A stretch of DNA of 64,000 nt, from positions 61,356,126 to 61,420,125 of the forward strand of contig JAVIAB010000092.1 in NCBI GenBank assembly GCA_032433765.1, in the 5' to 3' direction. Shown here piece by piece: positions 688 to 49,500 of the stretch. The number at the start of each line of letters is the position of its first letter. Within the stretch, counting starts at the first letter, position 1. A model generated the notes under the pieces. It saw only the letters and a list, made by a program, of their open reading frames with translations, did not search any database and was not told the DNA's origin. The DNA comes from Megaustenia siamemsis. Its lineage: Eukaryota > Mollusca > Gastropoda > Stylommatophora > Ariophantidae. The position numbers were made by a program, and so were the translations under genes.

Positions 688-766
688 CTCATACGCTTTC
701 TGTTGTACCACTTGTTTATAGATTAGACCTTGAAAATAGATTTGTAGCTTGGTGAATGCATTGTCA
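688..766 (-). CDS. DEG/ENaC exon n: pre-TM2 palm strand
   Basis: A 79-nt exon (phase 2 to 0) between acceptor CCTTCTCCAG and donor GAG|GTACTT. It encodes [20 protein letters not shown] followed by QQKAYE, equivalent to the N...L.IYF..L......Q..AYE stretch right before TM2 in ASIC and ENaC. The next exon should carry the GG..GLF.G.S selectivity-filter region; I do not see it in bases 1-687, so it is outside the window. Confidence 0.88.
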
Positions 767-10300: not shown

Positions 10301-11308
10301 AATGAAATTAATTCCCCGTTGGGTTCTAATCATTATAACTTTACATGCAAATTTTGAACAACTTACAACAAGTGGTTAAAAAGCTATTGATTTTAAAAGT
10401 TGGGCACGAGTTATGAAACAAGCTATAACTGTGTTTTATATGTTCGGATTTGGAGTCAAAAACGATGTCCTAACATCATCAAGCGCTATACATTAAAACA
10501 AATATGACGATCATCATTTTCAGGAGGACGTGAACTTCCGGTCTACATGGTGGATAGGCGGCAGGAACCATTGAAGGCTATGTGTAAAAAGTGTTCCTTG
10601 TTGCAGTTTCCTCATATTCCAAGTCCGGCTTGTTGCAGGAGCTACCGAGTTAAGTGCTCTGTGCACACCGTGAGCTGTGTGTCTCTTCCGTTTTGATCAC
10701 TTTTCGACTTTCCAATTGCTTACAATGAATGATGATATCGTGTGACAAGGAACGGTTGGCTGTGTTTACTTTCTGTGCGGTTTCGTCTTATGTCTTTTGG
10801 CGTGTGCTGGGGCTGCTATGATGGAGACTACAATTACCTTTCTTTGCTTTGGAGATTAGTTAGTAATTCGGATGATTCCACTGGCACAGGCGGTTGAGCA
10901 ATTATGGATTTTAATTCGTTTGCAGTGATACCGGGGCCTTCCATAACCATGCAACTGTGAACGTTATTATTATATTAGATTCTATAGCATATCACTTTCA
11001 TTCACATGAATTGACATGGATGTAACTGTGACTTATATTTACAAACATAACTGTTCTAAATGTAAATGCTTTACTCACATACAAGGAATAGGACACAGCT
11101 CGTCACATGTCTCGTAACTCTCAGGGTAATCTTGTGGCAGGCGATTCACGCAGGACTCTGGAAATGTGTATGTCCTATCGTTAAACGCTTAGTTAATCTT
11201 ATTCGCTGAGAACACAAATCTCAAACAATAGAACGTTCTAGAGTCATTACAAACTTATATTATTGTTCTTAATAAATAATTTGTAGCTTTTTAAAATTTC
11301 ATTCAGAG

Positions 11309-20485: not shown

Positions 20486-23400
20486 ACACATTTGTGCCTT
20501 CCTCTTTCCTTCTTACATTACAATCTCCCTTCTGATTCCCCACTCTCCTCTCCTCTTTGCTTTTCTCTGCTCCTGTATTGGCCTCTTACACCTTGACGTG
20601 ATTTCCCCAGGGGATAGTCAAGGTCTATATTACATATTTCTAAGTATGTTGGCACACTTCTACAGAAGTCATGATCCCTTTTTATCAAGTTATATTTATA
20701 ATTACAGCTGCACTGCTATTATTTGCCTGCTCACTACATATATTTATAATTACAGCTGCACTGCTAATATTTGTCTTCTCCCTACTTATATTTATAATTA
20801 CAACTGCACTGCTATTATTTGCCTTCTCCTTACTTATATTTATAATTACAGCTGTAGTGCTTTTATTTGTCTGCTCCCTACTTATATTTATATCTTTATC
20901 ATTACGTATTCTGCAAGATTCTTCTTTTTCACTTTATGTTACATTTCTACGTCACTCTTTTTTTTTATTTGTATTCCATTTCCATATTGCTGCTATTATT
21001 CTAGTTGTGTCAGACACACTACCATATAATCCCTCCTTCTCTGTCGCACCCCGTATTTGCATCAATTCTCCATAATCCACTTGTTACGCCGCATTTATCC
21101 CCATGTTGAGCAAGTAGTTTTCTGGTTTTGTTTGCTCTTGTTTTCACTCCATAGTATACACTTCTCAATCTTCGGCTGGTAACCATTTCATTCTTGACCG
21201 TTTTTCACATCTCATATTTTTATCTCTTCCGACTTCTCGTCTAATCGCGTGACTGATTTTTCCCTTTTCCTATTCTCACGTCTCATCACATTTGACTCAC
21301 AGCCATCTACTTGCTAGAAGCTTTGGATCATGCCTCAGTTAAGTCTCGATTTAATTTTAAAATACTTTTTAACTTACTATACCTTTACATATTACCACTT
21401 GTTATCCTCCTATAGGTAGGCAGTACAAACCCTTTCGTTTTATCCCTCTATTATTCCATCTTTTTATTTCTCTTCTCTTTACCTGTCCCACATATTCTAG
21501 ATATAATAGTCCATCTTTATTCTGTTGTCCGTTTGTGTTGTTCTTGTTCTCTGAAGAAGGCTGAATGTAGGCCGAAACGTCAGTATTTTGTTGTCCTCTT
21601 TTTGTAAGGATGTCACCATACCTTGTAGGAGTGTAAGTTACACCCCCACCACTGCTCTTTGCCGCTATTTTTAAAGCAGCACTGCAATTAATTGTCTCTC
21701 CTCTAATGTTTTGACTCGTTCACTTCTTACATGTATTTCTTAATCATCGCCACAAACAATCTAATGTTATTTCTGTAAACATGACCACTCGTAAATGTTC
21801 AACTTTTGTCTGTTGTTATTGTATTGCACATCCATTCGTCTATATCCTGGTACTATTGGTTTCTTAGAAGCTAGTGGCCGAGATAATTAAACTGGTAGTT
21901 TGCAAAGACATAACGGAGAGTGATAAGATTAAACAAAAAATTGACTTTGCCTCCTGCAGCGACTGTACAGGTAAGAGGTATCTATTTCTAGCCTCCATTC
22001 CCTATAACATTGGGTAGTACAGTAAGAGCCGGTTATATTTTTTCTTAGTGATCAAAATGTTATCAATGTTTTGAACAACGGAGATGCTGAAATATCTTTT
22101 TATTAATTGTGCTGCATAAATAATTAATATATTTTCGACACAATGTCTATAAAACAACAAAAATAATTTCTTGTTAAATTATATAACAGGTGAATCTGTT
22201 AAGGGCATCAAATGTAACACCATGATATACCTTTTTAATTCCAATTGACGTAGATCTACCAGGCATGATAGACATGCCCTCATCTTCGAGAAACGGCATC
22301 GAACCTTTCTTGTGAACGAGAATTCTCGCCCCTGCGTCTGGAGCCAAATTTGCTACGTAATTTTCCTGATCAATAAACAGCTCCAGTCTCAGTCCTAAAT
22401 AAGAATTCCGCGAATTTCTAAATTACATTTTAATCCAGCAAAGATATATATATATATCATGAAACGTTCAGTATCCATACAGTAATTTTCTCTTCCTCTG
22501 CGCCCGTCTGAAAGAATATTTTTCTCTTTCCAGTTCTCCCAGTTCAGCGATTGTAATGTCCCTTTGTTGTCTTACAATTTTTATTTTATTATCTAGTATC
22601 TGTGTATTTTATTTTTATGTTGTCATTAGACAAAAAATTAATATTAGGACAATTTTTTTTATTTTACCTAAAGTTATGTGTATTTGCTGTTTACGTTTAT
22701 CGTAAGTGTTAACTGTCTAGCGTTGGAGAACGGATTAATTCATTTTCTATTATTACTAATAGGAAAATAGATTGAAAAAATGGATACGGTTTGAAATAAT
22801 GTACTGTGCATTACCGTATATGGAATACAGCAGTCAGAGACATAAATATTTTGAGATAAGTATAACTTATAACATAACACAACAATCATTTGTGTTAATA
22901 ATTAATCACGATTTCAGGTGTCTTTACTGTTTATGCTCAAATAGCGTGCCCTGTATAAAAGTAAAAGTAAAGTACCCCTGTTTACGCCAAGTGGCGTGTA
23001 GGGAATATTAGTGTTAGTGACCATAAATTTTACAGATCTTCGGCACATGATTTTTGAGGTAATGTGGTCGGTATTACACCCGTGCCGCTTTACTTTCCCA
23101 GAAAACAATCCGGTACCCATTAAAGGCTGGGTGACCCGGACCCCGTCGGTTGGTTTCGAACCCTACCACTTGTCCATTGTAGTCCAGTTCACTAACCACT
23201 GAGCTATCGCGGCCTCCGTACGCCCTTTATAATGATTGGTCCAAATGAGTGATAAGAGAAAAACAATTCGATTGTTTCTAAACTGATTCCTCGAGTAATG
23301 TTCATCAATATTTTAACCATCTCAGTTATTTGTGTATGAGCGACATCATTGCAGAGCTGCAGCTTTTGCTGTTAACAGCTGAGATTATTAGTTGGCACAG

Positions 23401-26400: not shown

Positions 26401-27646
26401 ACCACACATACATACACACAGGCGCGCACACACAAGTACAAACAAACAGCATTATCAGGTCGCATGTCTTTTGCTGAACGTTGTTTACATCACAATCCGT
26501 CTAAAAGAATCTATGTCTCTAGCCCAGATATCCATTTCTGTTGTCATATTCAACACACACATACGTATGCGTGTTTGTATGCATACATTTATCTAAGCCA
26601 TAACAAATAACAGTGAAGATGCAATAAACAGATAAATGCTACCTACCATATTGAGGGCCTGGAAACCTGGTAGTGAGGTTCTTTTGATTTGGATCAAATT
26701 TGGAATTAAATGTGTAACAGTTTCCATACTTATGACTGTGAGAATAAGTGAAATTCCTGTTAAAAAATAGAACCACTGTCATAACATAAAACAGGGAAAA
26801 GATTTCATATATTTCGAGAGTAAAATAACCCGAAAATGAGAAAATGTTATAAAACATACTACTCAATGCAGTAAGACAAACCGAGTATTGAGGCAAGCAA
26901 CTTCTGTCTCCAATACAAAAATATTTGCTGGCACAAATAATTATCTCATTGTCATCCCCACATTATGCAACCAGTGACAGAATTATACAAGTCTTTAGTG
27001 AAAGTTAGTCGCCATAGAATTAAGTTTTGATAGGAAAACAAAGAGTGAGAGAGAGAGAGAGAGAGAGAGAGTGTGTGGGAGAGCTTTAGAGTATGGTCTG
27101 ATAGGAAGTCAAGGGCCGAACAACTGCAGTGAAAGAAATTTGTGGAGATACCAAAACATTTCCATCAGCATAAGTGGTGCTTGATAATTGGCCTGCGGTG
27201 AAATGAATGTTTGAGAATTCATGCCATACTATAGCGGTTGTGTCAGATTAGATAAAAAAATTAGAATTGTGGGCAAATCGAGGATTAGTTAGAAGGACAC
27301 CATCAAGGAAAATCACCTTCCAGCAGCCTACAACAATTGTTGAGGCTCCCAGAGGTACCAAAGCTAGAATCATGGGTCTCCCTCGATGTTCAAAAAGATA
27401 CAAGATGAAGCTAGGAGGAAGAGAAGCACAAATCTCTTAAAGTTACATGACAATTCTTAATAAATATTTAGTGTTTACAAACTGGGCTATTCGTTAACAG
27501 TTAAGTCATGTGACGTACATCAGCTATCTTACATAGCTTCGAGGAAGCCGTGCTAAAGAAGAAAACCGGAGGCTGTTTATTACTGTCTGTTGTATAACGA
27601 TAGAATCTTGAGTGATGAATAAGATAGCGGGGGAGACAGAGAGAAA

Positions 27647-27702
<56 letters not shown>

Positions 27703-30700
27703 ATTGCTTATGAAATATTCAACGTATTAAAGCCACTCGTCTGAAAAAGTTTCAAGGATGAATTCGTCCAATAAGAGGTGAAGAAAGCTGTTGTATTCTT
27801 CGAGGTACTTTGTATGGTTAGTTTGCTTTTGTTCTCAGGGTTCCCATGGAAAAACAAACACCGAAAAAAGGAACTTTGAACGTTAGACTACTCATGCAAA
27901 AGGGAAAACATCAAACAGCAAAGAATAAGATGGATTTACATTTATTGGGACTGTGTGAAATGAGATACACCAGATCAGGGAAGATATATTCTGATGAACA
28001 TAAAATTATCTACTCTGGAGGTACTGTACACGAAGTAGGTGTAGGTTTCATCTTGGATGCAGAAAGAGCAAGAACAGTGAAAGGCTTTGGGCATTATCTG
28101 AGAGTGATATTAGTGAAATTAAATGAAAGCCAATAGATATTAATACCATACAAGTTCATGCACCAACAGCGGACAGTCCAAAGGAAGCAGTTCATATTTT
28201 TTTCCTTGAGATTAATATGGCACTTCATCAAACCAAACCACATGAAAATACTATAGTTCAGGGATCTGAACGCTAAAGAAGGAAAGGAAAGAGTTGAAGA
28301 AATGGTTTGTTATTATGGCTTAGGAGAGAGAAATGAAAGATGTGACAAACTTATTGACCGGGCAAGAATTCACAACATGATGATAAGAAACACCTGGTTT
28401 AAGCAACATCCAAGACGTCTATGGACACGGAAAAGCCCAAGAGACAACGCACATAATCAAATCGACTACTAATGATAAACAATAGATTCAGAAACAGTCT
28501 GGTGTGTGTAAAAACTAGACCTGGGGCAGATTGCAATAGTGATAATGCACCAGTTGTGGGAAAGCTTATAGTAAAATTAAAAACAGCAAAAAGAGCCTAA
28601 GTTAATATCAAGTTAAATTTAGATTTACTCAAATCAGACAAGATGTTACAGGACAGATATAACCTCACAATTTAGAACAGGTACAATGCAATAGAGAAGG
28701 TGCAAAGCATTGATGAACAATGGGAAATGCTAAAAGAATCAATGCAGCAAAAATCAAAAGAGATCATACCACCAGTGAAGACATTTTCAAGAAAAAAGTG
28801 GATGACAGACGACATTATACAACTAATGTATACAAGAATAATAATAAGGGTAGCAAAGATGAGAATATGAGATTAAATAAAGAAATTATAATAAAATGCA
28901 ATGAAGCAAAAGAAGTATGGCCACAACAGAGGTGCAAAGAGACTGAAATGCAACAAAAGAGAGATGCCAAATCGTTCGTTCGTTCGTTCGCTTTCGTCAG
29001 CTTTGACCTCTGACGAAGTCCCACCCACTCAATTTTGTGGGACTGAATTTTGCGTGTAAAGATGCCAAATCTAAATGCAAACAAATTTAAAAATTAACAG
29101 GAAGAAAAAGGCAATCACAAACTGGGTGTTAAGATCAAGGGAAGGAGAACTGTTGATTGAACAAGAAAGCATAAGGGAAAGATGGACAGAATGCACTGAA
29201 AATCTTATGATTATGAACGAGCAGAAGTAAATATTAAGGTTAATGGGAATGACCAGAAAGAAGCGGAAGATGCCTTGCGCAATATGAAAGCACGAAAATC
29301 TCCTGCACCAGATAATATAACTAAAATAGAGATTGAAGCCATGGGTGATTTTGGGATAGAAATAATAACACAAATATTGAATGATACCTACAACAGCGGA
29401 TATATACCAGACGACCTGCTCAAATCAATATTCATAGTCCTGCCAAAGAAATCTGGTGCGATTGAATGTAATGATCATCGCACAATAAACCTTATGAGTC
29501 ACATGACTACGATATTACTAAGAATCATCATACCAAGAGTGCAAAACAAAATCAGTCCATGCGAATCATTGACAATAGGACAACAGACAAGAAAATTACT
29601 GGAGGCTTGTGAAATGTAGTTTTACAGAAAATATTGAAAATACCATTGACAGCTAAGGAGAGTAATGAAAACTTTCTGTAAGAGGCCAAAGCAAAAAGAG
29701 AGCTAATTTCCAACATTACGAAGAAACAATTATCATATTTTTGGACATGTAATGAGAAGGGAACAGCTGGAAAATATTGTGACAACTAGAAAAATTGAGG
29801 GACGAAGTGAAAGAGGGAAGCAAAGAGAAAAGATACCAGACAACTTAAGAAAATGGCTTGGCAGAGGGTCAACAACAGAAATGATAAATAACTGTCGAGA
29901 TCGAAAATATTAAATCCAAATATATTTATGTCCCATTAAACAATTTTTTATGCTTCTTTTTTACACATTCGTTCTGTGTAACCCTCTTTCTTTAATTTGA
30001 TGCACATTGAAACAAGCTTAAAATAGCTATCGCAAGTATACATACGTTTCAACTTCATGACATTAAGTACTTTGCAATTGAAATTTAGATAAATCTCTTC
30101 AAAGCAACAAAATAATTCAGATGTTAAAGACCTTAGGTGTGTACTTTTCGCCGTATGGTGAAAGAAATTAAGTAAATTTTGACTGATTTCAGTACAATGA
30201 GATTTGATACGTGATTTGTGCGACTTATCACATGAAATAGCCAGTTTATTTTCTGTTTTGTCTTAGTTTATTTTATAATCCATCCATTCATCTTAGGAAT
30301 ATCTCGTTTATAGATTTTTTGCTTATGCCGCCGATACCCAAACACTATATGAACTTCATACCGTGTGTTCGCAGTTAATAATCACATCACTTATTACCTT
30401 ATTATCACTTATACCTAAACACTATATGAACTTCATACCGTGTGTTCACAGTTAATAATCACATCACTTATTAAGGACATACATTTCATATTTAAAAATA
30501 AAAAGATAGAAAATGCTTTCTGGATAAGTTTTCGTCAATATCTATCTTCAGAAACACTTACATCGGTGAGCACTGGTATCCGCCAAACTTGCAGGTTGCA
30601 ATCATATCAATCTTGAGATGTCCCCATTGTTCTAAGTAACTGGAGTTTAGTTTGGCCGTGATATAGGCGTATGTCATTGCGGCCTCATATTCGTCATCTC

Positions 30701-33700
30701 TTTCTTCATAGAAGCTGAAAGGTATATTGGCATTGTGTGACTACTAAAAGGGGAAACATAAAGTTGCTCGTAACATGTACACGGGTGTATACAATGTACT
30801 TAATATTAGACATAGTGATATTCACTAAGAGTGAAACAGGATAGCTTGCAGAAATGTGAAATGTATTAATAGTAAGATGATTGGTTCCTAAACTAAAATT
30901 ATTTACACTTCAGTACTTTGCAGTTTTGTTATGCGAAGGATAAGACACATTGCATCACCAGGATATTCAGCATTTACCATAGAACAACATTTACCATAGA
31001 ACAACATTTACCACAGAACATTTACCACAGACCAACATTTCTCTGTGCACACCGTGAGCTGTGTGTTACATCCGTTTTGATCGTGTTTCGATATTCCTAT
31101 AGCTTACGATGAATGATGATATCGTATGACGGGGAACAGATGGATGTGTTCACTTTCTTTGCGGTTTCGCCTTATGTCTTTTGGCGTGTGCTGAGACTAC
31201 TATGATAGGGACTACATCTATCTTTCTTTGATTGGAAGATGAAATATTAATTCGGATGATTTCACTGGCACGGGCGGTTGAGCAATTCTGGATTTTAATT
31301 CGTTTGCAGCGATGCTGGGGCCTTCCATAACTATAATAATAGTTTCTGCTTGAACTATGTAAAGAAAGACGATATAAGTAAATACACAAGAATTGCAAGT
31401 CAAATGAAATATTTTCTTCCTGGTCTTCACCAGATAACATCTAAATTAGCTTATTGTTATCTTCATCGTCATCCGTTCTTTAGAGCACGTTAAGTAGGGG
31501 TTGATCATGACGTTTTAGTAGAATTGTGATAATTGTACCTTTCGTGCAACACATCCGACTTCATCATGACATTTGAGTACTGGGTTGCCTTCCCTCTTCT
31601 ATCCCTACTCACTTGGTTGGATAAGACTTGTTAGTATATTTTAGAGGTATCGCACAGATGTGGAGAAGGGTCTGGATGGTTCTGGATTCATCGATCCTGG
31701 CGCAAGCCATCAGCTATGAGTCACTAACAGCATCCAGTTTTGTTGCTCTTAGGCGCTTTGCTTCTAGATGCTACATGAAACAAAGCTTTAATGGAATCAA
31801 TTAATTGACCCTACTAAAAAAGAACAACAGAAGAATGTTCGACAGGCAAAACGTCAAGGGTGATGTGAACAGTTGATGTGCGACTTAGATGTTTACAAAG
31901 AATTGTGAAATCTATTAACAAGGAGGAAAAGACTTCCGCATAATCTCCAAATTCTGCAGCTTAGTACTGGGCAGTATCAAACTTTTACTTTAACATGTTT
32001 CCAGACTTACCGCTATTTTGTTTTTATTCTAGATTTTCAAGCTAGACTAAACGTTACTTTTGCTTTTATTCAATATTTAAAAGCCACACTTATAGCTATT
32101 TTTTGCTTTTATTCTATATTTGCAAGCCACGCTTACCACTATTTTTTTTTTGCTTTTATTCTATATTTGCAAGCCACACTTACCACTATTTTTGCTTTTA
32201 TTCTATATTTGCAAGCCACACTTACCACTATTTTTGCTTTTATTCTATATTTGCAAGCCACACTTACCACTATTTTTGCTTATATTCTATATTTTCAAGC
32301 CACACTAACCGCTATTTTTGCTTATATTCTATATTTGCAAGCCACACTTACCGCTATTTTTGCTTTTATTCTATATTTGCAAGCCACACTTACCACTATT
32401 TTTGCTTATATTCTATATTTTCAAGCCACACTTACCGCTATTTTTGCTTATATTCTATATTTCAAGCCACACTTACCGCTATTTTTGCTTTTATTCTATA
32501 TTTGCATGCCACACTTACTGCTAATTTTGCTTTTATTCTATATTTGCATGCCACACTTCCTGCTAATTTTGCTTTTATTCTATATTTGCATGCCACACTT
32601 CCTGCTAATTTTGCTTGTATTCTATATTTGCATGCCACACTTACTGCTAATTTTGCTTTTATTCTATATTTGCATGCCACACTTACTGCTAATTTTGCTT
32701 TTATTCTATATTTGCATGCCACACTTACTGCTAATTTTGCTTTTATTCTATATTTGCATGCCACACTTCCTGCTAATTTTGCTTGTATTCTATATTTGCA
32801 TGCCACACTTACTGCTAATTTTGCTTTTATTCTATATTTTCATGCCACACTTACTGCTAATTTTGCTTTTATTCTATATTTGCATGCCACACTTCCTGCT
32901 AATTTTGCTTGTATTCTATATTTACAAGCTAGACTTTTCGTTATTTTATTTTATTGTATATTTGTAAGCAACAAGAATAATTATAGTTGATCGATCAGCT
33001 CGAAGACAACTCATACTTTATAGGGGAGGTTATCATCAAAAGATGAATCATTAACTTATAGACATACATAATTATAACAAACTAGTCACTGCTGGTTCAA
33101 CAATAATCGTTCTTATAAGGCAGAAAAATAAATAGGCGTCTAATAGTGACTGTCATGTTTCGACAGGAGACAAATAATAATAAATGAATATTATAGAGGG
33201 AAACTTCCGAGGCGAAAATCAGCGAATCTATTCAGAGGAAGAGGTATGTTTACTGCACTCACAAAAAATGGCAAATAATCAACAACAGAAAAAAAACAAA
33301 GAACAATATATGGACCGAAGCAGGATCGAACTGTGATCGCTGTGCCACTGAGTACGGGTTCGATCCTGCTTCGGTCCATATATTGTTCTTTGTTTTTTTT
33401 TTTTCTGTTGTTGATTATTTGTCATTTTTTCCGAGTGCTGTAAACATGCCTCTTCCTCTAATTGATTGCTCATATTTCGAGACCAGTCTGTTTCTAATCT
33501 TGTAAAGATCTAAATTATCACATCTCTCGTTGTGAGCTGCATCCTAAATTTGGCTACCTTTTAAGTGTCGTTTATATATCTCTCTTGTCTTATACATCGT
33601 CATAGTTTCTCTAGTCGATCTCCTGATGTTGTTAGTTCACTTCACACAATGTCTGGCTCTGCTACGTTGACTCTGCACTCTTTTTCAACTAAGTTATTAC

Positions 33701-36700
33701 GTCACTTAGTATGGAAGTTACTATGTAGACATATTATTAGCGCAAACAAGAAGTTGACAACAAATGAATGTGAAGAGCAGCATTAAGAGATGTAGCAGTA
33801 ACAGACCGCAGAAATTATTTGCAGTAAAATCTAAGGTTCAAACGACAAATGATTCTAATCGACAAGCAATCTTTACTATCACAGATAATTTAACGAGGAT
33901 TCTTTAATTAAATATAGCATGAATTAATATAATAGAAAATCATTCGCATTAAAAAAAATTCGCAGAAAATGGTATGAAAAGCTATTTAAAAAAAAAACAA
34001 AGTGTACGTACTTTAAAGATCCATTAGCAGAAAGTGCATTCCACTTTTTGAAAGAAGCGTTCTGTAGCATGGTATCAGGGTCCACAAGGGTATTTGAAAC
34101 GTTTGGAAGAGTTGTACTTCTAGCGTTTCTTTTTATTCTCCGATGTGCTGCACAGAAGATGGCAGAGATTGATATATTGATGGTACACGCGAAAGTATTT
34201 AAATAGGAACTTGATTAGCACTAAATTCCAGAACTCAGGTGCTACAAAAAATATCTTGAAAACAATTAGCATAATAGAAATAGTGTGGCGGTGTCCATTC
34301 CAAAAACTGTGTATACTAATGAAATTACTTCTGTTACCTTCATAATGCTTTTCATTTACATTGAGGCACATTAAAGGGAGTTAAGTGGCTAAATGAATCA
34401 GGGCTATCGTTTTATAATCAGGTGTATGTGAGTTCGAATATTGTTAGAGTCAGAAATTGTGTTCTACAGAAGTTGAAGTCAATAACAAGTATCTCGCGGT
34501 CGACAGTGATATCAAGTTACACGCTGTTGCCGTGAGTCGTTCGTTCATAGATCCATGGATTATGGTGGCGTGGCGTGCTTGCAATGACTTTCCCTGATTC
34601 CCTGATTCTGCTAGAGGTATAAAGTTTGCTTGTCTAGAAGTATTAAAGTATTACATCATCTATATCAAGAGACCCAACGACAGCGATCATCACCACCTTA
34701 GGCGGCTTGTTTTGACGCAAACTGATACCAGGGAGAACAACTGGAAATAAGATGAGGTTTGTTAGTCGATGAACCGCCAACCATGCTATGGCGACAGTAG
34801 GTTGTCCTGCATGAGTTCCACATGTGGGTTGAGATTGTCGCACACCATGTGATGACTGGCTTGGGAGATATGGTCTTGATTCTTCAGCCCAAACTCCCTC
34901 TCTTACTTTATTCTCAATTTTCTGGATTTTGAAGTTGCTTTTATCTCTCCCTCTCATTCTCTTTTTCTTTCTCACACTCTCAGAGAAAAAAGCAACTTCA
35001 AAATCCAGAAAATTGTTTTAGTACCATAAGAACATGTTATATATGTCTCTGTGTTTATGTGTGAAAAATAATCAATTATTTTAGGAAGCGCTATTCTTAT
35101 TCGCTTCACTATTCGCTTCCCTGGTTTTCTTTGGCTTCTTGGAATTTCAAATTGCACATATCTGGGGTACTGTCTACAATTTACTAAAGAGAATGCTCTC
35201 TTGCATTTCTGTTACCTGAATGTTCTTGTTGCCGTTTAATGTCTCCAAGAATTGTGTCTTTATCAGAATCAGCCATTTCTCGTTCCGGAAGTTATAGTGG
35301 TTATAATGTCGGGGTCTTTCCTGCAAAGAAATAACAAAATGAGGTGTTGTTTCCCATTTTTAGCTCTACATTAAAACAACAAATGAAACAAAAACGTTAC
35401 TGTAACAGTTAAGATGTGTTTTTATAATTTAGAAAACACTGGCGCAAAGCGGAAGGTTATTTTTAAGAAACCCTGCATACGTCTGCAATAAAAGACGAAT
35501 GATTATAAACAATGGAGGCACGATCCTTGAGTTACTGGGGAGCTTTACTTCACGTGGGAAAGTGAGATTTACTTCAATAAAGAAAGGGAATGTACAAGAA
35601 AACGGTCCTTTTTATTTACTTTACAATAAAGAAATGATACGGTTTTATATGTTGACAGATATTAGCAACTTCAAAATCCAGAAAATTGTTTTAGTGCCAT
35701 AAGAACATGTTATATATGTAAATATGTCTATGTGTATGTGTTTATGTGTGAAATATATTTTAATCTAATTTTTAAAAAACATGTACTGGCAACAAAAAGC
35801 AGCTAAAATTCTGAAAGAGGCCAACACAAAAAGGGAGCTCCTGAAAAACATCAGAAAGAAGCAATCAACATTTTTCGGGCACATCATGAGAAGAGGAAAG
35901 TTGGAATACTTGGTTACAACAGGCAAAATAAAAGGAAAGAAATATCGCGGACGACAAAGAGAGAACAAAATGGATAGCTTGGTGTCATTGTTATGAAAAA
36001 CGGTCAACAACTGAATTGATACTATCCACTGTAGATAGAAGATTGCGGAAGGACATGATCGCCTACGCCAATCGGTACACATGATGATGAGAGATTAGCA
36101 ATCATGTAAAAGAATATGGTTACATAGCTAGCAAGGAAACAATACAGTTATTATAGCCAGCTCCCATGGACACAAACTTAACTATAAGTTCAACAATTTA
36201 TGGCCAAACTCAACATCAATTTTCTTAGAAACTACTTGACATAATGACGTCATTGTGTGCATGGAGTCTTAGATCTTCCTGGACTTTAAGAAGTTGTAAA
36301 GATTTAGTTGTGAGTATTTCTTATATAAATTATGTACAATGACAAATGGTGTGCAAACAACATTAGATTTTACAGTACTACATTATAATATATCACGGTG
36401 GTTGGTTCTACTTTATATTCTGGTAAGGCCAATCCGGTCTACGGCCACTTTGACACTATACATGTTTGTTTTTTTTTCACTTAAAATTTGAAAGTGTACC
36501 CATTATCGAACGGGCTGGCTGTAAAACCTTTAATTGTATGTCATATATATCTAATATGTAAGTATCTAGTCTTTTTTAACATAAGCTATATAAGCTAAAT
36601 CCTACACTTGAACACCTTTTCAATAGAAGAAAAAAAATATTTTAAGGTCCGGGAAAATATAAGACTGTCACAAAAATTTCACAACAATCCATAAAATAGT

Positions 36701-39700
36701 TTCCTATAAATTTGATTTTGAGTTTTGGCAACATTTTTTGAACGGACTATAGTTAACTTCGGTCGTTGTTGGTTTGTCAAAAATATGTAACTTCAAATTA
36801 AAAATGATGAACTATTTCTATTTGGCATGAAGCTTAAACTTCTGCATAAATTGTGTTTATAATGACAGTTTGTCTTTCTTGAACAAATAAACCAGAGATT
36901 ATAGTACTGCATGAAACTACTATTGATAGAAAATAATGTTTGGAAATTCTACATACAAATGTTTCGGAGTTTTAAGAATTTATAGCAAAAAGAAAATCAA
37001 ATAAAAGATATAAGAAGAATTACAGGGAAACAAGCATCATTAGGGATGAGCAATATATACTGTTGGAAACAATAAAAAATTGTTGATTTTTTATATGATT
37101 AAGTATTAAAAAAAACCGGAAGTACAGAAATAGTGGCCAAACACCGTAGTTTTGTTGAAAAAAAAGCAACCAAGTGTTAACAATCTGAGCTTAAAATGGT
37201 AGTGCAAAAAAGAAACTGTCAGAGAGAGATCACAATTTCTGTTATTTTAAAATGAATGAATGTAAATAATTAAGTAGAAAAGCCGAATTAACAGACATTT
37301 GCATCCTTTTATTTAGGAGAAACTTTATTTGAAGTTGAATTAAGTTAAACAGGGCGTTCTATAGGTCACAGGTCACTCATTTTGTGTTGAAATATTATTT
37401 CAACTTGTTTACTGTATACATAAAATTTAACTGGTTATATTTCCGGAAGTTTATTTATTGTAACTACTAAACTTAAGTCGTTACATTTCTGGATGTTAAA
37501 TACCTCGAAAAGCCAAAAATTGTCTTTAGTGAGGACATGTGGACTATTAACTCTGATTTTACGTTTACGTCTGACCAGACTCGCTGCCATCGAAACGTTG
37601 ATTGTGGGCGATGTGGCCCGTGGTGATGTCATTGTGTATGGTGTTTCTGGTGGGAAAGTGTTCTCAGCACTTGACGACTCTATATCTTCATTATCCATTG
37701 TGCCTGATGATGAATACATGTGAAGGTATTTATTTACCATATATAATCATTATAATATCAACAAAGACATATTTATTTTTATATTTCAACAGTAACATAC
37801 AGCATATCATTCTTGCATCAGTGAAGTAAAAATGGAAAGTAAATAGACAGAATTGTGTGGTTAAAGCTTTACGTGATTAATGGACCACACAAATTTGAAC
37901 GACTTTTCTGTTCACTAGGCCTTCATCAGGAACAAACAAACAACACACACAGAGAGATATGTAAGTAAATCAAATTGTTCTACATAGTTAACTAATAATG
38001 AAGTATCTAAAACAAAATAATTTCGAACTAGTATGAGAAATAAAAATAAAACATCTTCCCTGTATGACGTCCTGATAGATGCTTCATTATTAGTTATCAA
38101 TGTAAGACTAATTTGATTCATTTGCATATCTGTGTGTGTGCTGTTTGTTTGTTCCTGCTGAAGGCCTATTGAGCCGAAACGTCCATCAAATGTGTGTCGT
38201 CCATTAATTGCGTAAAGCTTTAATCATATTATTTTTGTCATTTCTCCTTCAAATTAGGTTTTACTGCAGCCTCGCATTTTTATACATTTAAATGCATTTG
38301 TTTGCCCTGACCCCTTAAATCAGTGCATTAGTATCTACTTCCCTCTCCTCAGGTAGCGAGTATATTCATCAGGTTAATGATTTGTGCTTCAATAATGTTT
38401 ATTAAAATTACACTATTTGACATTTACCGCTGGCACAGCCGTCATTCTAGTATACTTTTATTATTTGTGATACTGTATTATTTATAGCATTATTCATATG
38501 GACATTTTTCTCGTGACTAAGCAGTTCGATCTAACATTCTGATATTTTTTTTATTATAATAACTGTAAAGCGCTATTGATACTTTCAATGTTTATCTGAG
38601 TTACATTTTTAGGGGGAAAAAAAGTTTTTTTTAGCAAAAGAATTTTTTTTTTCCTCAGATCAAGGTTGTAAAGTAAAAAGTTAGTTTTTATTTGTAAACA
38701 CCCTGTAAAAATGGTAATATTATTTTGTGAGGATAATTATGTCTAAAGTGTTAAATAATGTAATATTCTTACAGGAAAATAACTATGTCTCAATGTAAAT
38801 TATTGCAATATTCTTTCAGTAAACTAATTATGTCTATTATGCTTGAGATTGTTATCTTTACATGCATTAATTTTTGCTTTTGATTAATTTGCAGTTGTTT
38901 CTAATATTGTCATTGAAACTGGCTGATGCTCCTATTGACCGCAACAATGCAAAGTGATGCATCTTCCCGCCAAGCGGTGGGTTCTCGCCCAATTGTAACT
39001 GTAATTGAGTATTTAATGTCTGCAATGAGAATATCCCACTTGCTTATTTTCTTCTCTGCAGAATAATGTCCCTGACTAGCTTCTTTCTCTATCTATAAAG
39101 TTCTTGAAGACCTTCAGTGATCAATGTGCTCTTGTTAGATCAATGTATTTTTGTTGCTTCTGACTCATTTTTCAACACTCTTATCATATACTTCCAAATT
39201 TACAAACTTCATCGAGGGTACATTATCATCCACAACTTCAGCCTCTTGCTCAGGTGCCTTCTCAATACTTTCCAGGTTTTGGTTGACGTAGTTTGACCCC
39301 CAACTTTTTCCAAGCAGAGTTCAGTGTCCTTAGAGAATCTGAGAACATAGCTCTCATATTTTGTCTCTATCTGGTTATTACCAATGGTGTGTTGTCGTCA
39401 TATTGTGGAGCAATATAATTTTGGTTTTAAAGAAATTACATTTTAAAAGAGCGCAGTATGCAACTTTATAGATATATTATTTATGCAATAGATATTTTAT
39501 TAAATTATAAAAGAGTCCCATTCACTCACCCAACTCCAAAAAAATATACCGGGAAGACAGGTAAATAAATATTTAAAATAATTTTATGCAATTGCACCTT
39601 ATATACAATTGTACCTTATATACAATTGCACATTATATACAATTGCACATTTTATACAATTGTACCTTATATACAATTGCACATTATATACAATTGAACC

Positions 39701-42535
39701 TTATATACAATTGCACCTTATATACAGTTGTACCTTATATACAATTGCGCCTTATATACAATTGCACCTTATATACAAGTACACCTTATATTCAATTGTA
39801 CCTTATATACAATTGCATCTTATATACAATTGCACATTATATACAATTGTACCTTATATACAATTGCACCTTATATACAATTGCCCTTATATTCATTTGC
39901 ACCTTATATACAATTGCCCCTTATATTCATTTGCACCTTATATACAATTGCACCTTATATACATTTGCGTCAAACTAGTAACTCTGTGACAGTCAGGATA
40001 ATGAAAATAATGTCAGAATTCCGGAACAAACATATGAATACCGAGTCGAACTTTACACCAAAATCATTACTTATATTTTTCCTCGCGTTATAGAGTGGAG
40101 ATGCATACCAGTAGCGGCGTTTTGTACTTCACTTGAACAGAAGCTAACTTTTCCTCCATACTTTGTTAATATTGTCTTGTTATATAAGCTTATTCGACAT
40201 TTGTTACTGATCTAACAATGTTGATGCTTCATCCCATTGATGTGTATATAAGTTTGCTAATTTCACGATTCAAATTAAATTAATATCACATCCCTTACCT
40301 GGACACTCAAGTTCATCATCATAGCAGTCTGTTATATTATCGCACAGCCACTCACTAGAGATACACATGCCTGAGCTACAGCGGAAATAGCCTTCTGGGC
40401 AGGTATTGTCTGCAAGAAAAAATTAATAGATGAATTCATTTTTTAAATCAATTGAGTTGTATTCCATGATGATTTTAGCGATGAACTATTTAAAACAATA
40501 TATATATATATATATGGTGAGGCCACTGGGCAAGAGGAAGACTGCACTAAACATGGTAGCGCATATAAAGAGTTAAAATAATATTGGTGTGGCGGTGAAT
40601 ACAAGACTTGTTCAGTTCTCAGTTCCATTGAGCGTCCAGAGAAAATAAAATGTTGACATTTCTACGGCTTCTTTCACAAATAATAACTTTGTAATCTATG
40701 AAATACTCTTAATCTATCTTCTTTCTTCATTTACTGTTACATTGCTAATGTCAATGTGTGTTTTTTTTCTCAATCAAAACAATTTATTTTGCTGCTTCTT
40801 GGTGTACCCTGCTGAAAGTTGTAGAGAAGCGGCTTCAGCTTATCAGTTTAAAGGAGTTATGGCTGACAAGATAATGTCGTTCGAACGCATAAACTATTAA
40901 AGTCAACGACAAGTACTAATGAACTAACATAACCAACGACCAAAAAGAATGAACTATTATAGCAGGTCAGGACGAAGTAACAAATATATAATCAAAGGTT
41001 AGGACGAATGAATTAACATTACCAACTTGAATGAGATTAACTAAAATAACCAATGGCAGGACATACGAACTAATATGGTCATAGGGAAATGGATTGGAAT
41101 TAATACAGGCCTCTGGTTATTTCAAGAAAACGTATGTAGCTTACCTAGGATATTGGCACCGCCATGCAAGTATAATTATAACACACAAAAATACGTAATG
41201 GCTTCACACCGCGCGTGACTTCCGTCATAATAGCCATCCGAATCATCACCAAATGACAGATTCGCATGAAGAAACCGTTACATCGGTAAGAAAAAGGAAT
41301 TACGACACGTCATGAGTGGCAAAGGATCTCACAGTCTGCTGCAGACCATGTTGTTGGGTACTGTGACATGCGGAGCACAGAGAGGTTGACAAAGAAACAC
41401 ACTAATTAACTAAATAAACTACTTGATGCAGCAAACCCAGAGCCACATCTCTTCTTCATCTCACCATCCTATCTCTCATCTCTCTGTAAACCTCTCCCTA
41501 ACTTTATCATCTGGCATGTAGCAATATATATTTATGATTCACCGTTGGTTGTCGTTGTCCCCGTATTTTAAATAAGGCCGAAGGCCGAAACGTCAGTATT
41601 TTTGTGTTTTTTTTCTTGTAAAGCTGTCACCATACCTTGGAATGTATACCACACCCCACTACTGGCTTCCAGATATAGACAAACAAGGAAACAAAAAGCA
41701 GGATCGTCAATGACTCATCATGTCAGCGCACAAAACTATCTAGAGAAAACTAAGAGATCAGACATGTAAGTTAGTATTAATCGTTAAGGCAAAATTTACA
41801 TATCAGCAAGGCAGGACTTATGAAAATTGTTACAAATATTTTTAGAGAAGTGTTCATGCGTTATATATATATATAGTGACCTTTCGAGCCGTAGCCGGCC
41901 CGCCCATAGGGAGTAGACCCAAATAGTCCTTCTCTGATCCAAACTCCTGTCCCAGCAGTTCTCAATCCCTGTAAAGATCTCCCATCAAATCTACCCTTTT
42001 GTCTCTGTTCTGTGCAAGCAACTCTATCTCATTGAGGGAGCCGATTCCTGCTACTCCCGCTTCTTCCATCAATGTTTCTCCCAGTGTTCTTCTTGTCTTC
42101 TTCCCACCCGTTTTTTCCCACACGAGGGCCAGTCCCGCTATTCGGTCACTATCTCTTCTCAGCACATGTCAACACACGACCGTCGTACTCTCTCGACCAC
42201 TAAAGATACCAGTGGTTGACCGGCGATTTCTCCAATCTCGTTTGCCCCTAACTCGTTCCACGCCATAACAAGCACCTTCCCTAGACATCTATCCTTGAAT
42301 GCGCTCAACCCTGCCTCCACGCCTATACGCAAGGGCAGACAGCACATTCGACCTGAATAGTCCAAGCCCTGTGTTTATGCTGATGAGTATTGACCTCCAC
42401 AACTTCCCAAGGCCCCCGAAAGACATTGCTGCCCTAGTCATTTTGATTCCAATTTCTTTACTTGTGTCCCCTTCCCGAGCAATGTGACTTCCAAGGTAGA
42501 TAAAGTGATCGATCTCTTCTACGGCTTCTTTCACG

Positions 42536-42597
<62 letters not shown>

Positions 42598-42702
42598 GGA
42601 AACATAACAGCAGCAGAGGCGAACAGAAGAGCAAAAGACCGCAAACTATATCTCCCCTCGACGCTGAAAGGCAGATGAGGAAGGAAAGAGGAAGGAGAAG
42701 AA

Positions 42703-42764
<62 letters not shown>

Positions 42765-43518
42765 CGTCATTGAGTGCCACCTTCACATTGAAGATTGGTT
42801 ACCATCCTTTATAGCATTTGAAATGTGGATATATAGAAGAATAGGTAGAATTGGATGGAAGGAAAAGAAAACAAACGATGAAGTCTTAAAACAACTAAAA
42901 ATGAAAAGAGAACTACTAAGCACAATTCAAACAAGACAAATGCGATTATTTTTGGGCCATGTTAAAAGACACAATAGCCTACTAAAAGTAATCTTGGAGG
43001 GGAAAATACAAGGTAAAAGAGGCAGAGGTAGACCAAGACTAACATGGACGAGTAACATCAAAAGATGAACAAATCAGCCTATGACAACCTGCACCATCAA
43101 AGCAAGAGACAGAGCAGAATGGCGCTCCATGGAAGCCAACCTTCGTTGCGGAGACGGCACTCGATGATAATGAGTTCTCTTTTGATTTTTAGTTGTTTTA
43201 AGACTTCATCATATGTTTTCTTTTCATTCCTTTCAATTCTACTTATATAGATCCACATTTCAAAAGCTTAAATTTTGTGTTTTCTTGTCCGTGTTTCTGC
43301 ATCATACAGGAATGTAGAGAAGATATACTATTTTGCTATTCTTAGTTTTAGTCCTGGTTTTAACTGTTTTGATATTAGTATATATATATATATTTTTAAA
43401 TGTTTCATGGCGTTAACATTACTTTTTGTCATTCCTATTCTTTTATTTTTCAGTTTTACACTTTCTATCACTGGTTATAGTATGTCCAAAGGTAGTTGTA
43501 GCTCTGAACTTTCTACAG

Positions 43519-43583
<65 letters not shown>

Positions 43584-46500
43584 CGGCAGACGGTGGATTC
43601 GAAACGTGAGGAGGCCAGTACTTGGGACTGATCTTTAGGTTGAATATTAACCTGATAAATTTGGACATTAGAGCAATTTACACTATGTAAAATAATTCCT
43701 TCAATTATTGTCCTAAATTAACATAATTATAATCATATCATAATATCTTAGTTGCATTATGCGTTATGAGAAAAAAAAAAGGATTATGCTATTAATAAAC
43801 TTCTCTTACAGTTTTGTTCAAATTTTTGTTTTATAAAGACGAAAGGCAGTGGCCTTAAAGAGTTTTAGATAAGGTCGCCTCCTATTCCTTGTTACAGTTT
43901 CCTCATATTCCAAGTCCGGCTTGTTGCAGGGGCTACTGAGTTAAGTGCTCTGTGCACACCGTGAGCTGTGTGTCTCATTCGTTTTGATCATGTTTCGATA
44001 TTCCAATTGTTTACGATGAATGATGATATATGGTATGACATGGAACAGTTGGCTGTGTTCACTTTCTGCGCGGTTTCGCCTTATGTCTTTTGGCGTGTGC
44101 TGAGACTGCTACGATGGCGACTACATTTACCTTTCTTTGTTTGGGCGATGAGTTAGTAATTCGGATGATTCCACTGGCACGGGCGGTTGAACAATTATGG
44201 ATTTTAATTCGTTTGCAGTGATACCGAGGCCTTCCATTACCAATAACCATTAACCAATCTTGTCATGGGCAGGAAAAGCTGAAAGCAGAAATGACGTACA
44301 TAGTTCTCATACGCATTGCAAGGTCGATAGCTATCGTTGTACTGTTGTTATAAGTTTGATCTCCATATACATTAACGCCTATATATTAGTAACAGCTTAA
44401 ATTACTTTAACACTATCACAGCTATACAAAGGAATATAGTGGCTGGCTGTACACTGACATTTATTTAACTCATCAAACTGGAATGTAATTGTGTTATGTA
44501 TTGTGATAAAATATTAGGGGAGTTGTGGCCTCCGTTGCATTCTCTGAATATTCTCCGTTTATATATATATATACTTAATATTGGTACCAGCAATGAAGAC
44601 GTGCACCATCAAGATAAGAAGCACATAAAATGGCACTCCATGTGGCCAACCTTGAATGTAGAAACGGCACTCAATGAATGAATGAAATAAGATCAACTTA
44701 CTCTCACAATTATCTTCATCTTCTGTTGTTGAATTGTTGCAGTCCCCTGGATAACCGTTACATCTTAACATTAGAGGCAAGCACTTGTGGGTAGACAGAC
44801 ATTTCCAAAAATAAATGGGACACTTGTAATCTGAATATAGATGATAATATATATTTCATAGTTAACTGTCGTCTTCAAACTAAATCAAAGCGCAAAAAAC
44901 ACATTGAATCAATTGGTTATATACCATCAATAAAATAACCAATCATATAAATCATTTTAAAAAATAAACCAAGGTAGACCAAATAAAGTAATTCAAACAA
45001 AATTAGCCTAGTAAAATAGATTAGCCAAGTATATATTCATTACAAAAAAAGTACAATTAAAAAGAGGTATAGTATATGCCGAGTAAGCATAGTAAGTTGC
45101 TATTGTACAATGTATAATTTATAATCTTAAAGACATGGCTAGGGTACAAAACGCACACACCTTCAACTTAATTTAGCAATTATGTTGAATCGATATTCAG
45201 AATTTAACTCTTTGTAAGGAGGTAGTTCAGGGATTTGTGATATAAAATATAGACAACAAAATAATAATTTAAAAAAAAAACATGACGATTAGTTGAAAAT
45301 ATAAGGCACTTATATAATATTAAAAACATGACCGATTAACTAAAGAAATATTAATATCTGTATTATTCTTTCTGTAATGGTTTTTACTAGGAAACAATTT
45401 TAAGTCCGTGTGAAATTTCAGGTGTGTATACAATACACTAACTTAACAACATCAACGTTTTATGTTATGCTGGGACAACCATATGAACCATATGAGTGGT
45501 GAACGTAAGTTCATATTAAACTTTTGAAAAAGGACATTTGTAAGTGTTTTAGGTGGACAAAAGAATAAGTTGTTCATAGAAAAGGTAAATAAATTGTTAA
45601 CACAATAACGTCTGTGTTCAGCGATTTATGAACTTTTCATTTAACGTTTATAATTTCCAAGAAATGATCAGAAATGTCTAAAGCAATGGACAACCTCTAT
45701 ACATTCATGCTGCAGAAATGTCCTTAAATCAGTGCATGTATTGTCTAGAAGTGAAGATTAATTATACAGCAGTCTAGAAGTGGTAGAATATAAACATAAA
45801 CCATTTGATTTTGTTATTTCAAACAGATCGGGATAAAATGAGTGTCTAAGTTCAAACTGAAAACTAATTCAATTTTTCGTGAAACGAGTGAGGCATTTGG
45901 ACATTGAATTATTGAGTTATTAGCGGGCCATCATTCATCATTGCACTACGAACATGTCCATATGTGCTCAGATCCCCTCCTCAGCAAGTCTCGAAGTGCC
46001 CAGAGACTGACGACTCCAGTTCTGTGTTGGTTAATTAGTCTTCTTACACCAAGTTTCTCGTATCTGACTGTTCCCATCTCAACTCCCATCTTTCCATACG
46101 AAGGAGTGACGTGGACTCATGGTTGTCGAAGTCCTGAGTCCTTCCCAATTCTCGGAGAGCATTATCGATGATGTCCGCCCGATCCATTGGTTGGTGGTCC
46201 TCAACAATAACGCAGCTAGCCAACCTGTCCGCTCTTTCATTTCCCCGTACTCCCGCATGTCCTGTGACCTAGACAAATGTGACCTTGCGTATTTTTTACT
46301 TCTGCAGTGACTGTACCCATTGCATACGTACAGATCCCACCTCCACTTTTCTTATCATGCTCATCAATCACTCAGTATACAGAGTAGGTGTAATCTTGTG
46401 ACTCTAACAAGATGAATGTCCTCGTCACTGCCATCGCCTCCATAGTCATACTACTCGTGGTCATGACGTATGAACCACTGTCTTCCTTGACTATTCTGCC

Positions 46501-49500
46501 TACCGAACGTGCTGTAATTGCCAAAGCACTCGTTTGGTGTCGTAATACAGATCCGTCTGTATTGATGACTGCATCTTTCTTTTCGGTGATATCCCAGATG
46601 AGATCGTTGACCTCAGCTTTGACCACGACTGAGTCCTGTTCCCCACAGGGGGTGGGGGGGGGGGTTGAATCCTGGACATTCAAACAAAAGACACGAAAGT
46701 CGTTGGAGATCACATAAACAAATATGAAGAAGAACATTAAGAATACCATGAAAAGAGGGATGAGGACGGTCTAAATGAGGTAAAGGGAATAAAAAAAGCT
46801 TATTTCCAAGAAGATAAATCATGCACCGTCTTTGGACCCTATTTGAAATTAGAGCAGTTGATATATATATAGGAATATTGGAAAATTGAAGGATGAAAAG
46901 ATATAAGGATGTGTGAAGAGAAGATTAAAAAAAAAAACAATTTATTAGGATAGTTTGAGAGGAAGTCAACATTATAAAAGAGGAACAGTTGTAGAAATAG
47001 AAAGTTGGGGAGAAACCTTTCTACCTACGCCAGCGGGCACGATACCCGATGAGGAAAATGATGATGATCATGATGTGTTATCAAAGTATGTGGCGAGCAG
47101 AGATTCGATGAAGAATGTTGACAAAGCTACCTTCACAATTGTCTTCGTCGTCTCCGTTTTCGCAGTTTTGATGTCCGTTGCACACATAATTCATGTCTAC
47201 ACACATTCCATTGTTACACTTGTAGCTTGCTTTGTCACAGTTTTCTGTGAAATATTCATTGAGATTAAAATAACTGAGGTTAAACAAGAGGTGATATTAA
47301 TGTGAAACAATTATACATTTCATATGTGCACATACACAAACGTATAAACAACATCTCGACACACATAAATACACCACACCTACAACAAACATGGTGACAA
47401 CCGCAGTTTCTATTTTTAGAAGAAAAAAATGTGTGGATAAATAATAAATATTATATTAATAAATATGTGTATTGTATCTGTATATATTTATAAATAATAA
47501 ATAAATATCCGTGCTTATCACACATTACTGTGGCCGACACTTACTAGATGTCGACCAGAAGGACAACGTGACAGCAGCCTTATAGTTCATTTTAAAAAGG
47601 AGTTGAGCTATATAAATGTGATATAGTGGGCTTTTATAATCTATACATTTTACCAACAGATGAAAATTTGGACTTTAGATGAGTGGCTTTTCAGAAAAAA
47701 GTAGATAATATTTAATCAAATGTGAGTTGTTCTCTTGAACCTAAAATATTCTATGACAGCTTAAAATGGTGAAAGGAAAATTATCTTCTGTGTAAAGAAA
47801 TTACACAAATACCAGAAAAGTCTAGGTTACATTAAGTCCAAATGAAGCGAGGGATTTCTTTCTTAGACATAGAGTTTCAGAAACACAGAACGGATGTTAT
47901 TTTTGCGAATTTCCGACAGAGAAATAAATACCTGTTGCACAATTGCAGATTAAAGGTCCTATTAAAAGCGTCCCTATTTTCACTGCTGAATGCGTGTATG
48001 CCTACTCCCAGGTGAACCAGTTCTCAGACCTACAAGAGCTTCTCCAAAGATTACGACCCTGATTTGACTGAGTTTTAGCAAGTTAATTGGTTCTCCCCTA
48101 TATTTTTTTCAATACTTAACATATTAACTGCAGGTTCATAAAGGACAGGCTGCTAGCATGGGACTTGAAGAGTAAGAAACACATTTCCTGATGATGACGT
48201 AATCGATGTAATGAGCCAAATTCAGAAAATCGTATTCTATCTATCTTCTTGACGACACATAGTACCATTGCTGGTGTATGTCAACAATAGAACCAGAGGG
48301 ATAAAGGCCGCTTGGTCAAGCAGTCGCCACGACGTGTGCGACTCAGGATTTTTATTTCACCCCCGATAGAAAAAATCCTTTCTGTCTACCGGAGGCTTCG
48401 AACACCGTACGTCAGCTTTTCAGCTAGTGGTTTTAGCCGCACGGCCAAGAAAATCGTATTAAAGGTATTAATTCAATATTTATTTTCTTTAACAGTGTTC
48501 TATAAAGTCCCTGAATCTTATAATTTACTTACTGCTCTTTCTGTCATTTGAAAATTATACCAGTATACTATAATTTGATAATATAGGTGTATACTATAAT
48601 TTGATAAATATAGGTGTATACTATAATTTGATAAATATAGCTATATACTATAATTTGATAAATATAGGTGTATACTATAATTTGATAAATATAGGTGTAT
48701 ACTATAATTTGATAAATGTAGGTGTATACTATAATTTGATAAATATAGGTGTATACTATAATTTGATAAATGTAGGTGTATACTATAATTTGATAAATAT
48801 AGGTGTATACTATAATTTGATAAATATAGCTATATACTATAATTTGATAAATATAGGTGTATACTATAATTTGATAAATATAGGTGTATACTATAATTTG
48901 ATAAATGTAGGTGTATACTATAATTTGATAAATATAGGTGTATACTATAATTTGATAAATATAGCTATATACTATAATTTGATAAATATAGCTATATACT
49001 ATAATTTGATAAATATAGGTGTATACTATAATTTGATAAATATAGGTGTATACTATAATTTGATAATTATACCAGTATACTATAATTTGATAAATGTATC
49101 TGTATACTATAATTTGATAATTATACCAGTATACTATAATTTGATAAATGTATCTGTATACTATAATTTGATAAATGTATCTGTATACTATAATTTGATA
49201 ATTATATCCGTATACTATAATTTGATAAATGTATCTGTATACTATAATTTGATAAATATATCTGTATACTATAATTTGATAATTATATCCGTATACTATA
49301 ATTTGATAATTATATCCGTATACTATAATTTGATAATTATATCCGTATACTATAATTTGATAAATGTATCTGTATACTATAATTTGATAATTATATCCGT
49401 ATACTATAATTTGATAAATGTATCTGTATACTATAATTTGATAAATATAGGTGTATACTATAATTTGATAATTATATCCGTATACTATAATTTGATAATT

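Follow-up and report, generated by a model that had tools for sequence, protein, structure and literature searches.

LDLa modules in the extracellular region of a predicted, tandemly duplicated DEG/ENaC channel of Megaustenia siamemsis

The 64,000-nucleotide stretch of the Megaustenia siamemsis genome analyzed here (the window; C91:61356126-61420125 of a 2.59-Gb genome) covers the greater part of one gene from a tandem DEG/ENaC family, in which three exons encoding LDLa modules lie in frame between the exon that follows the first transmembrane segment (TM1) and the exon for the finger of the channel. This architecture is both real and conserved, because the exons are confirmed, two tandem neighbors are built alike and a predicted orthologue in Bradybaena carries the same modules, and we lean slightly towards the view that the LDLa modules, each encoded by an exon that begins and ends in phase 1 (phase 1-1), act as a ligand-binding antenna modulating the channel. 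The architecture is undescribed in the papers searched, yet already present in databases as predictions; what is new is the placement of LDLa in the slot of the vertebrate ENaC GRIP domain beside furin-type motifs, the occurrence of two separate clades of LDLa-bearing channels, and a gene array with variable modules.

An earlier sequence-only reading had located the three LDLa exons on the minus strand and assigned them phase 1 at either end, and both points are borne out: AG acceptors and GT donors are present at the exon borders (Table 1), all three exons enter and leave in phase 1, and in the spliced model they run in frame between the post-TM1 and finger exons of a DEG/ENaC gene. Its further claim of one complete module per exon stands with respect to the cysteines, since all three modules have six, together with the acidic pair ahead of the last one; when each is scored alone, however, the middle module falls below the Pfam cut-off for LDLa (PF00057, 24.1 bits), which the other two exceed. 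We nonetheless accept module 2 because it is 64% identical to the corresponding module of Bradybaena P0085, its unusual residues included. A scan for the six-cysteine LDLa pattern over both strands of ~283 kb (the window plus 219.5 kb downstream) gave 10 minus-strand matches, all of them LDLa exons belonging to three channel genes, and none on the plus strand, which rules out chance LDLa-like patterns; the regular expression itself demands the six cysteines and the acidic pair, so that its matches do not gauge the conservation of these residues.

It is highly improbable that the LDLa exons are part of a different gene sitting inside the introns and never spliced into the channel. The introns do reach lengths of 12.6 kb, and transcripts of the species were not at hand, but predicted orthologues and an intron-less contig that resembles a transcript hold LDLa in frame, the phases fit exactly, the exon order is repeated in two neighboring genes, and the ~283 kb scanned contain no other LDLa pattern. 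The contig in question (P0005), whose source label reads 'lgn', has an 837-amino-acid (aa) open frame on 2,619 bases with TM1, two LDLa modules, the channel part and the second transmembrane segment (TM2), and it fits a transcript because this intron-less frame spans TM1 to TM2.

The gene model, built by comparison with relatives, comprises 14 window exons encoding 604 aa, is free of stops and compatible in all its phases, and runs from the post-TM1 exon through the three LDLa modules, a linker with the motif RRKR, a short exon with the motif RIKR, the finger, palm and thumb to the strands leading towards TM2. On a 505-aa model the ASC profile PF00858 scores 142 bits against a cut-off of 23.6, with the cysteine-rich ectodomain matching. 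The linker and finger exons, which had earlier been joined directly, turned out to be separated by exon E2, to which relatives align and whose phases (1 in, 2 out) are the same in both neighboring genes. Following tblastn with relatives, a finger exon starting at 30740 and joined straight to exon E was replaced by a start at 30714 plus exon E2, and after comparison with Bradybaena the start of exon J was moved from 11187 to 11157. The 3' border of exon E is unsure: position 37485 offers a weak in-phase donor, and using the somewhat stronger one at 37504 would require an unseen exon; an extra exon between E and E2, as the counterpart of ~100 Bradybaena residues between the first and last motif, was sought and not found. 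In exon A, at window positions 59960-60000, three residues are added by a 9-base near-repeat, where the aligned relatives and both neighbors read FPSVT[IV]C without them.

Table 1. Exons of the modeled gene, listed from TM1 towards TM2, its flanking exons and the two neighboring genes (window positions unless prefixed with C91)
Feature	Position	Strand	Basis or remark
N-terminal exon	C91:61427227		Flank
TM1 exon	C91:61423795		Flank
Exon A, post-TM1 strand and first ectodomain helix	59844..60027	-	Model; tblastn with relatives
Exon B, LDLa module 1, phase 1-1	47131..47244	-	Pfam 38.4 bits
Exon C, LDLa module 2, phase 1-1	44702..44830	-	Pfam 21.2 bits, below cut-off; Bradybaena match 64%
Exon D, LDLa module 3, phase 1-1, four acidic calcium-ligand positions	40299..40409	-	Pfam 38.2 bits
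Exon E, linker with Ser/Thr-rich portion and furin-type motif RRKR	37485..37703	-	3' end unsure, 37504 possible
Exon E2, second furin-type motif RIKR	34012..34147	-	Relatives align; phases repeated in neighbors
Exon F, finger helices, CKFGGYQC	30562..30714	-	Model
Exon after F	26647..26756	-	Model
Exon H, palm	22231..22394	-	Model; 10 close genomic copies, own copy included
Exon I, thumb	13933..14149	-	Model
Exon J, thumb/palm cysteine exon	11079..11157	-	Comparison with Bradybaena
Exon after J	7369..7426	-	tblastn with relatives; model
Second-last window exon	3700..3758	-	Comparison with relatives; model
Last window exon, before the TM2 exon	688..766	-	TM2 exon 1.57 kb beyond the window
TM2 exon, GGQLGLWLGLSAIT with GxS	C91:61354559		Flank, 1.57 kb outside the window
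Neighboring gene P1	C91:61345413 to 61227982		Four LDLa exons
Neighboring gene P2	C91 from 61198243, examined down to 61137001		Three LDLa exons and a fragment of a fourth

No TM1 or TM2 exon lies within the window; both are found in its flanks, the latter with the GxS that has a known role in TM2, and the gene spans ~73 kb from the N-terminal exon to the TM2 exon, with no exon for the cytoplasmic tail located. In the assembly, a one-base shift separates the frames of the TM1 exon and exon A, leaving no continuous TM1-TM2 frame in the window copy, and only two of the GT/AG pairs tried preserve the frame, both dropping ~17 residues from the first palm strand; in both neighbors this junction is in frame. 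The window copy is thus either damaged at the TM1 junction or misassembled there. If damaged, it could be a decaying pseudogene of the array with an inert product, the other copies being the working channels, a substantial possibility that we nevertheless do not favor: besides the frame break and the shortened splice routes, there are odd changes at otherwise conserved residues (a DFPDFP repeat, VDP for VDW, MPFLED for MPFPED), but a one-base assembly error would give the same appearance, open frames with fitting phases run through the 14 exons (A to L) and through the TM2 exon, and the ratio of nonsynonymous to synonymous divergence (dN/dS) between the core of the window gene and that of P1 is 0.12, albeit at a high dS (1.27).

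P1 and P2, the two further genes of like architecture, follow downstream on the same strand. The P1 junctions examined fit in frame, and its exons E, K and KL were not located. Each of the seven complete LDLa exons of these neighbors has a phase 1-1 splice-site pair that is best or good among the sites listed, which makes 10 of 10 complete LDLa exons across the three tandem genes; five of the seven modules score above the Pfam LDLa cut-off, and the two sub-threshold ones are second modules, as in the window. At C91:61154943 in P2 lies the fragment of a fourth LDLa, TCLHGYFQCSAGNCIKSSW, a partial match of 19 residues where the full LDLa pattern was not found. A search with the palm exon finds 10 close genomic copies, nine on contig C91 within 0.77 Mb (78-100% identity) and one on C51 (80%), and LDLa is present in all three of those examined, the other seven being situated at C91 60.61-61.04 Mb and C51:110.4 Mb; more distant copies occur on C137 (28-37% identity), C90 and C124. 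Elsewhere, at C137:92.3-95.3 Mb, at least 14 palm-exon matches on the one contig mark a second, distant DEG/ENaC array, and the loci at C124:15151601 (L001) and C90:32573686 (L002) show ASC matches of ~380 profile positions in uninterrupted frames of 2138 and 482 aa, respectively; because of these long frames they would have few introns, unlike the window gene.

The assertion that no described DEG/ENaC member carries LDLa holds for the literature searched, where no account of LDLa modules within such a channel, nor of a member with any borrowed receptor module, was found among titles and abstract openings, the slash name DEG/ENaC being unsearchable; papers co-mentioning the terms appear, from these same parts, to concern LDLa-bearing proteases and other proteins. 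It fails for the databases, which hold LDLa+ASC predictions: in searches of the protein collection, PF00858 and PF00057 co-occurred in 10 of 83, 8 of 36 (a list sharing entries with the first) and 12 of 14 returned proteins, from heterobranch gastropods and hemichordates as well as a shrimp (P0030) and a crinoid. A predicted orthologue, P0085 of the land snail Bradybaena, has the same three modules (45, 64 and 62% identical to those of the window) and a channel part that is 61% identical.

In a tree of 48 rows, from which 5 of 53 rows without a usable core were left out (Lineus, Actinia, Physella deg-1-like, Plakobranchus ASIC and Ostrea), the window gene stands beside Bradybaena and Candidula (100/96) inside a heterobranch clade (100/99). 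No LDLa label is attached to the rows of caenogastropods, Haliotis, Gigantopelta, Patella and bivalves, and the heterobranch rows that bear LDLa group together in a clade nested among LDLa-free gastropods. A Pfam scan of 10 rows without the label (seven gastropods, two bivalves and one annelid) listed no LDLa at a limit of E 10, and none of the 12 bivalve rows measured had LDLa, two of them (P0021, P0026) being without a name; the measurement of LDLa and insert omitted P0003 and P0092, and the heterobranch records P0009, P0012 and P0015 have no N-terminal part and are uninformative on LDLa. Exon shuffling of LDLa into a DEG/ENaC channel, as the sequence-only reading proposed, is well supported because all 10 LDLa exons are phase 1-1 and the LDLa-bearing heterobranch clade is nested in this way. 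The hemichordate and crinoid LDLa rows form a separate clade (98/97), and a single clade of all LDLa rows was rejected by the approximately unbiased test (p 6.6e-6; 34 rows, without the long-branched Penaeus, a partial Physella row and other near copies). On this tree two separate gains of LDLa would require the fewest changes (2 changes); a single ancient gain with many losses in between could still be accommodated. Further borrowed modules occur in P0117 (Glandiceps) and P0119 (Saccoglossus), which combine ASC and LDLa with an added Kringle and CUB, respectively.

The neighbors also permit a comparison of modules and channel core. Between P1 and P2, 191 of 206 residues (93%) are identical in the TM1, A, F and G exons but 64 of 115 (56%) in the LDLa modules, with the N-terminal exon (38 of 54) and E2 (26 of 38) intermediate; by NG86, dN and dS are 0.31 and 0.50 for LDLa vs. 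0.03 and 0.16 for exons A, F and G. Identity of the DNA in matched stretches varies as well, from 88-90% around TM1 and F and 83% at G to 71-75% around LDLa2, LDLa3 and A and 70% at E2, while LDLa1 is not covered by any matched 120-base stretch. Exon A nonetheless keeps 88% of its residues and the LDLa2 and LDLa3 modules 57%, in similarly diverged stretches, which implies weaker or different constraint on the modules beyond any age difference; gene conversion near TM1 and F would fit the remaining pattern. We make no claim of strong positive selection on the modules, as dN/dS is 0.62 for a single pair and flank identity varies.

The long introns of the window gene also harbor repeats and mobile elements. 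Two arrays of one 27-base repeat (window 48546-49890 and 52899-53515) lie within an apparent segmental duplication, so read because the open reading frames behind both arrays (~50.1-51.4 and 53.8-55.0 kb) are the same, and intronic tandem arrays of 42-base and 17-base units occupy 32001-32973 and 39585-39968, respectively. An intronic, uninterrupted 376-aa frame on the minus strand (8766-9893) has a DDE_3 transposase domain (51 bits), and intronic reverse-transcriptase domains on the plus strand (60694-61812 and 55183-56199) are read as LINE-like elements.

In light of these results, we propose that, once cut at the R-x-K/R-R motifs that follow the modules, the LDLa part would stay anchored to TM1 but be parted from the finger, palm and TM2, and that ligand or calcium binding to the LDLa part, or its release by a protease, could shift the linker and finger and thereby change the open probability of the gate. 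Tandem copies would hold one channel core and vary the modules, and may thus differ in ligand, not in pore. Several observations weigh against such a role. The window copy as assembled has its one-base frame break between the TM1 exon and exon A. Only module 3 keeps the full set of four acidic calcium-ligand positions, as defined from the LDL receptor; in modules 1 and 2 the set is incomplete, with Asn at one or two of the positions. Faster module divergence is known from one gene pair, which is not proof of selection for diversity, and part of it is age, because dS and flank identity differ between parts too. The furin-type motif and LDLa are not tied to each other, because LDLa-free gastropod relatives carry the motif as well (5 of 6 scored; P0088 was omitted from motif scoring); the motif alone is within chance (p 0.05-0.19) in three of five LDLa-free relatives and 2 of 10 LDLa rows, it is missing from LDLa row P0010, and none of nine hemichordate and crinoid LDLa rows has it between LDLa and finger, Anneissia having one upstream of LDLa. 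Finally, Foldseek nearly ties ENaC (E 1.8e-26) and ASIC (6.6e-26).

The modules might alternatively be a passive insert, a spacer tolerated in a permissive loop and perhaps aiding folding or trafficking, without ligand or gating effect. Module number does range from 1 to 4 per gene among heterobranch rows and neighbors, the equivalent stretch takes up 60 to 206 residues in LDLa-free relatives and is Ser/Thr-rich in some, and hemichordate relatives also have Kringle and CUB domains; we still think this unlikely, given that the modules are conserved between the window and Bradybaena about as well as the channel part and that the six cysteines and acidic pair recur in all three window modules and all seven complete neighbor modules (residues that the pattern itself requires). 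The ligand-binding antenna that we prefer has a bolder extension, which we regard as speculative: a receptor-channel repertoire of about nine arrayed genes, with a homogenized pore and core and differing LDLa sets in the GRIP slot, each having a lipoprotein, peptide or matrix ligand of its own to open or prime it and being armed by furin cutting, with LDLa recruited independently in molluscs and hemichordates. If true, it would be the ion-channel counterpart of clustered receptors with a constant effector and a variable binding part, and if the two LDLa clades reflect separate recruitments to one slot, the loop would be an open port for control modules.

Among known channels, members of the DEG/ENaC family open to protons, peptides, proteases or force. 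FaNaC and ASIC share superfamily and fold with the window channel but score lower by sequence and VIA-align, with ASIC near-equal by Foldseek, and neither is known to have LDLa modules. The hemichordate and crinoid channels (Saccoglossus, Ptychodera, Glandiceps, Anneissia) likewise have LDLa before the ASC finger, and behind the post-TM1 motif where the record extends, but differ in forming a clade of their own, in having up to seven pattern matches and in the missing furin-type motif. Closest are the heterobranch predictions of Biomphalaria (P0006), Plakobranchus (P0003, P0086), Elysia (P0002, P0004) and Bradybaena (P0085), which share the clade of the window gene, two to three LDLa modules, a linker with furin-type motif, an ENaC-like ectodomain and TM2, and differ in module number and linker length; some are labeled 'amiloride-sensitive sodium channel subunit beta/gamma', and the literature searched yielded no paper about them. 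By sequence and VIA-align, the top matches of the channel part are vertebrate ENaC (SCNN1A/B/G), although the tree does not join the two and places its two vertebrate rows on a long branch. In vertebrate ENaC the protease-sensitive GRIP domain sits between helices alpha1 and alpha2 and is a small beta structure without LDLa modules (PMC6197857). The LDLa modules occupy this same stretch, and here, too, an insert with furin-type motifs, RRKR and RIKR, as predicted cleavage sites lies between the post-TM1 helix alpha1 and the finger helix alpha2, as in the ENaC subfamily. Should the LDLa part bind a ligand, it would couple that extracellular ligand directly and in modular fashion to ENaC-type gating, exactly where proteases control vertebrate ENaC.

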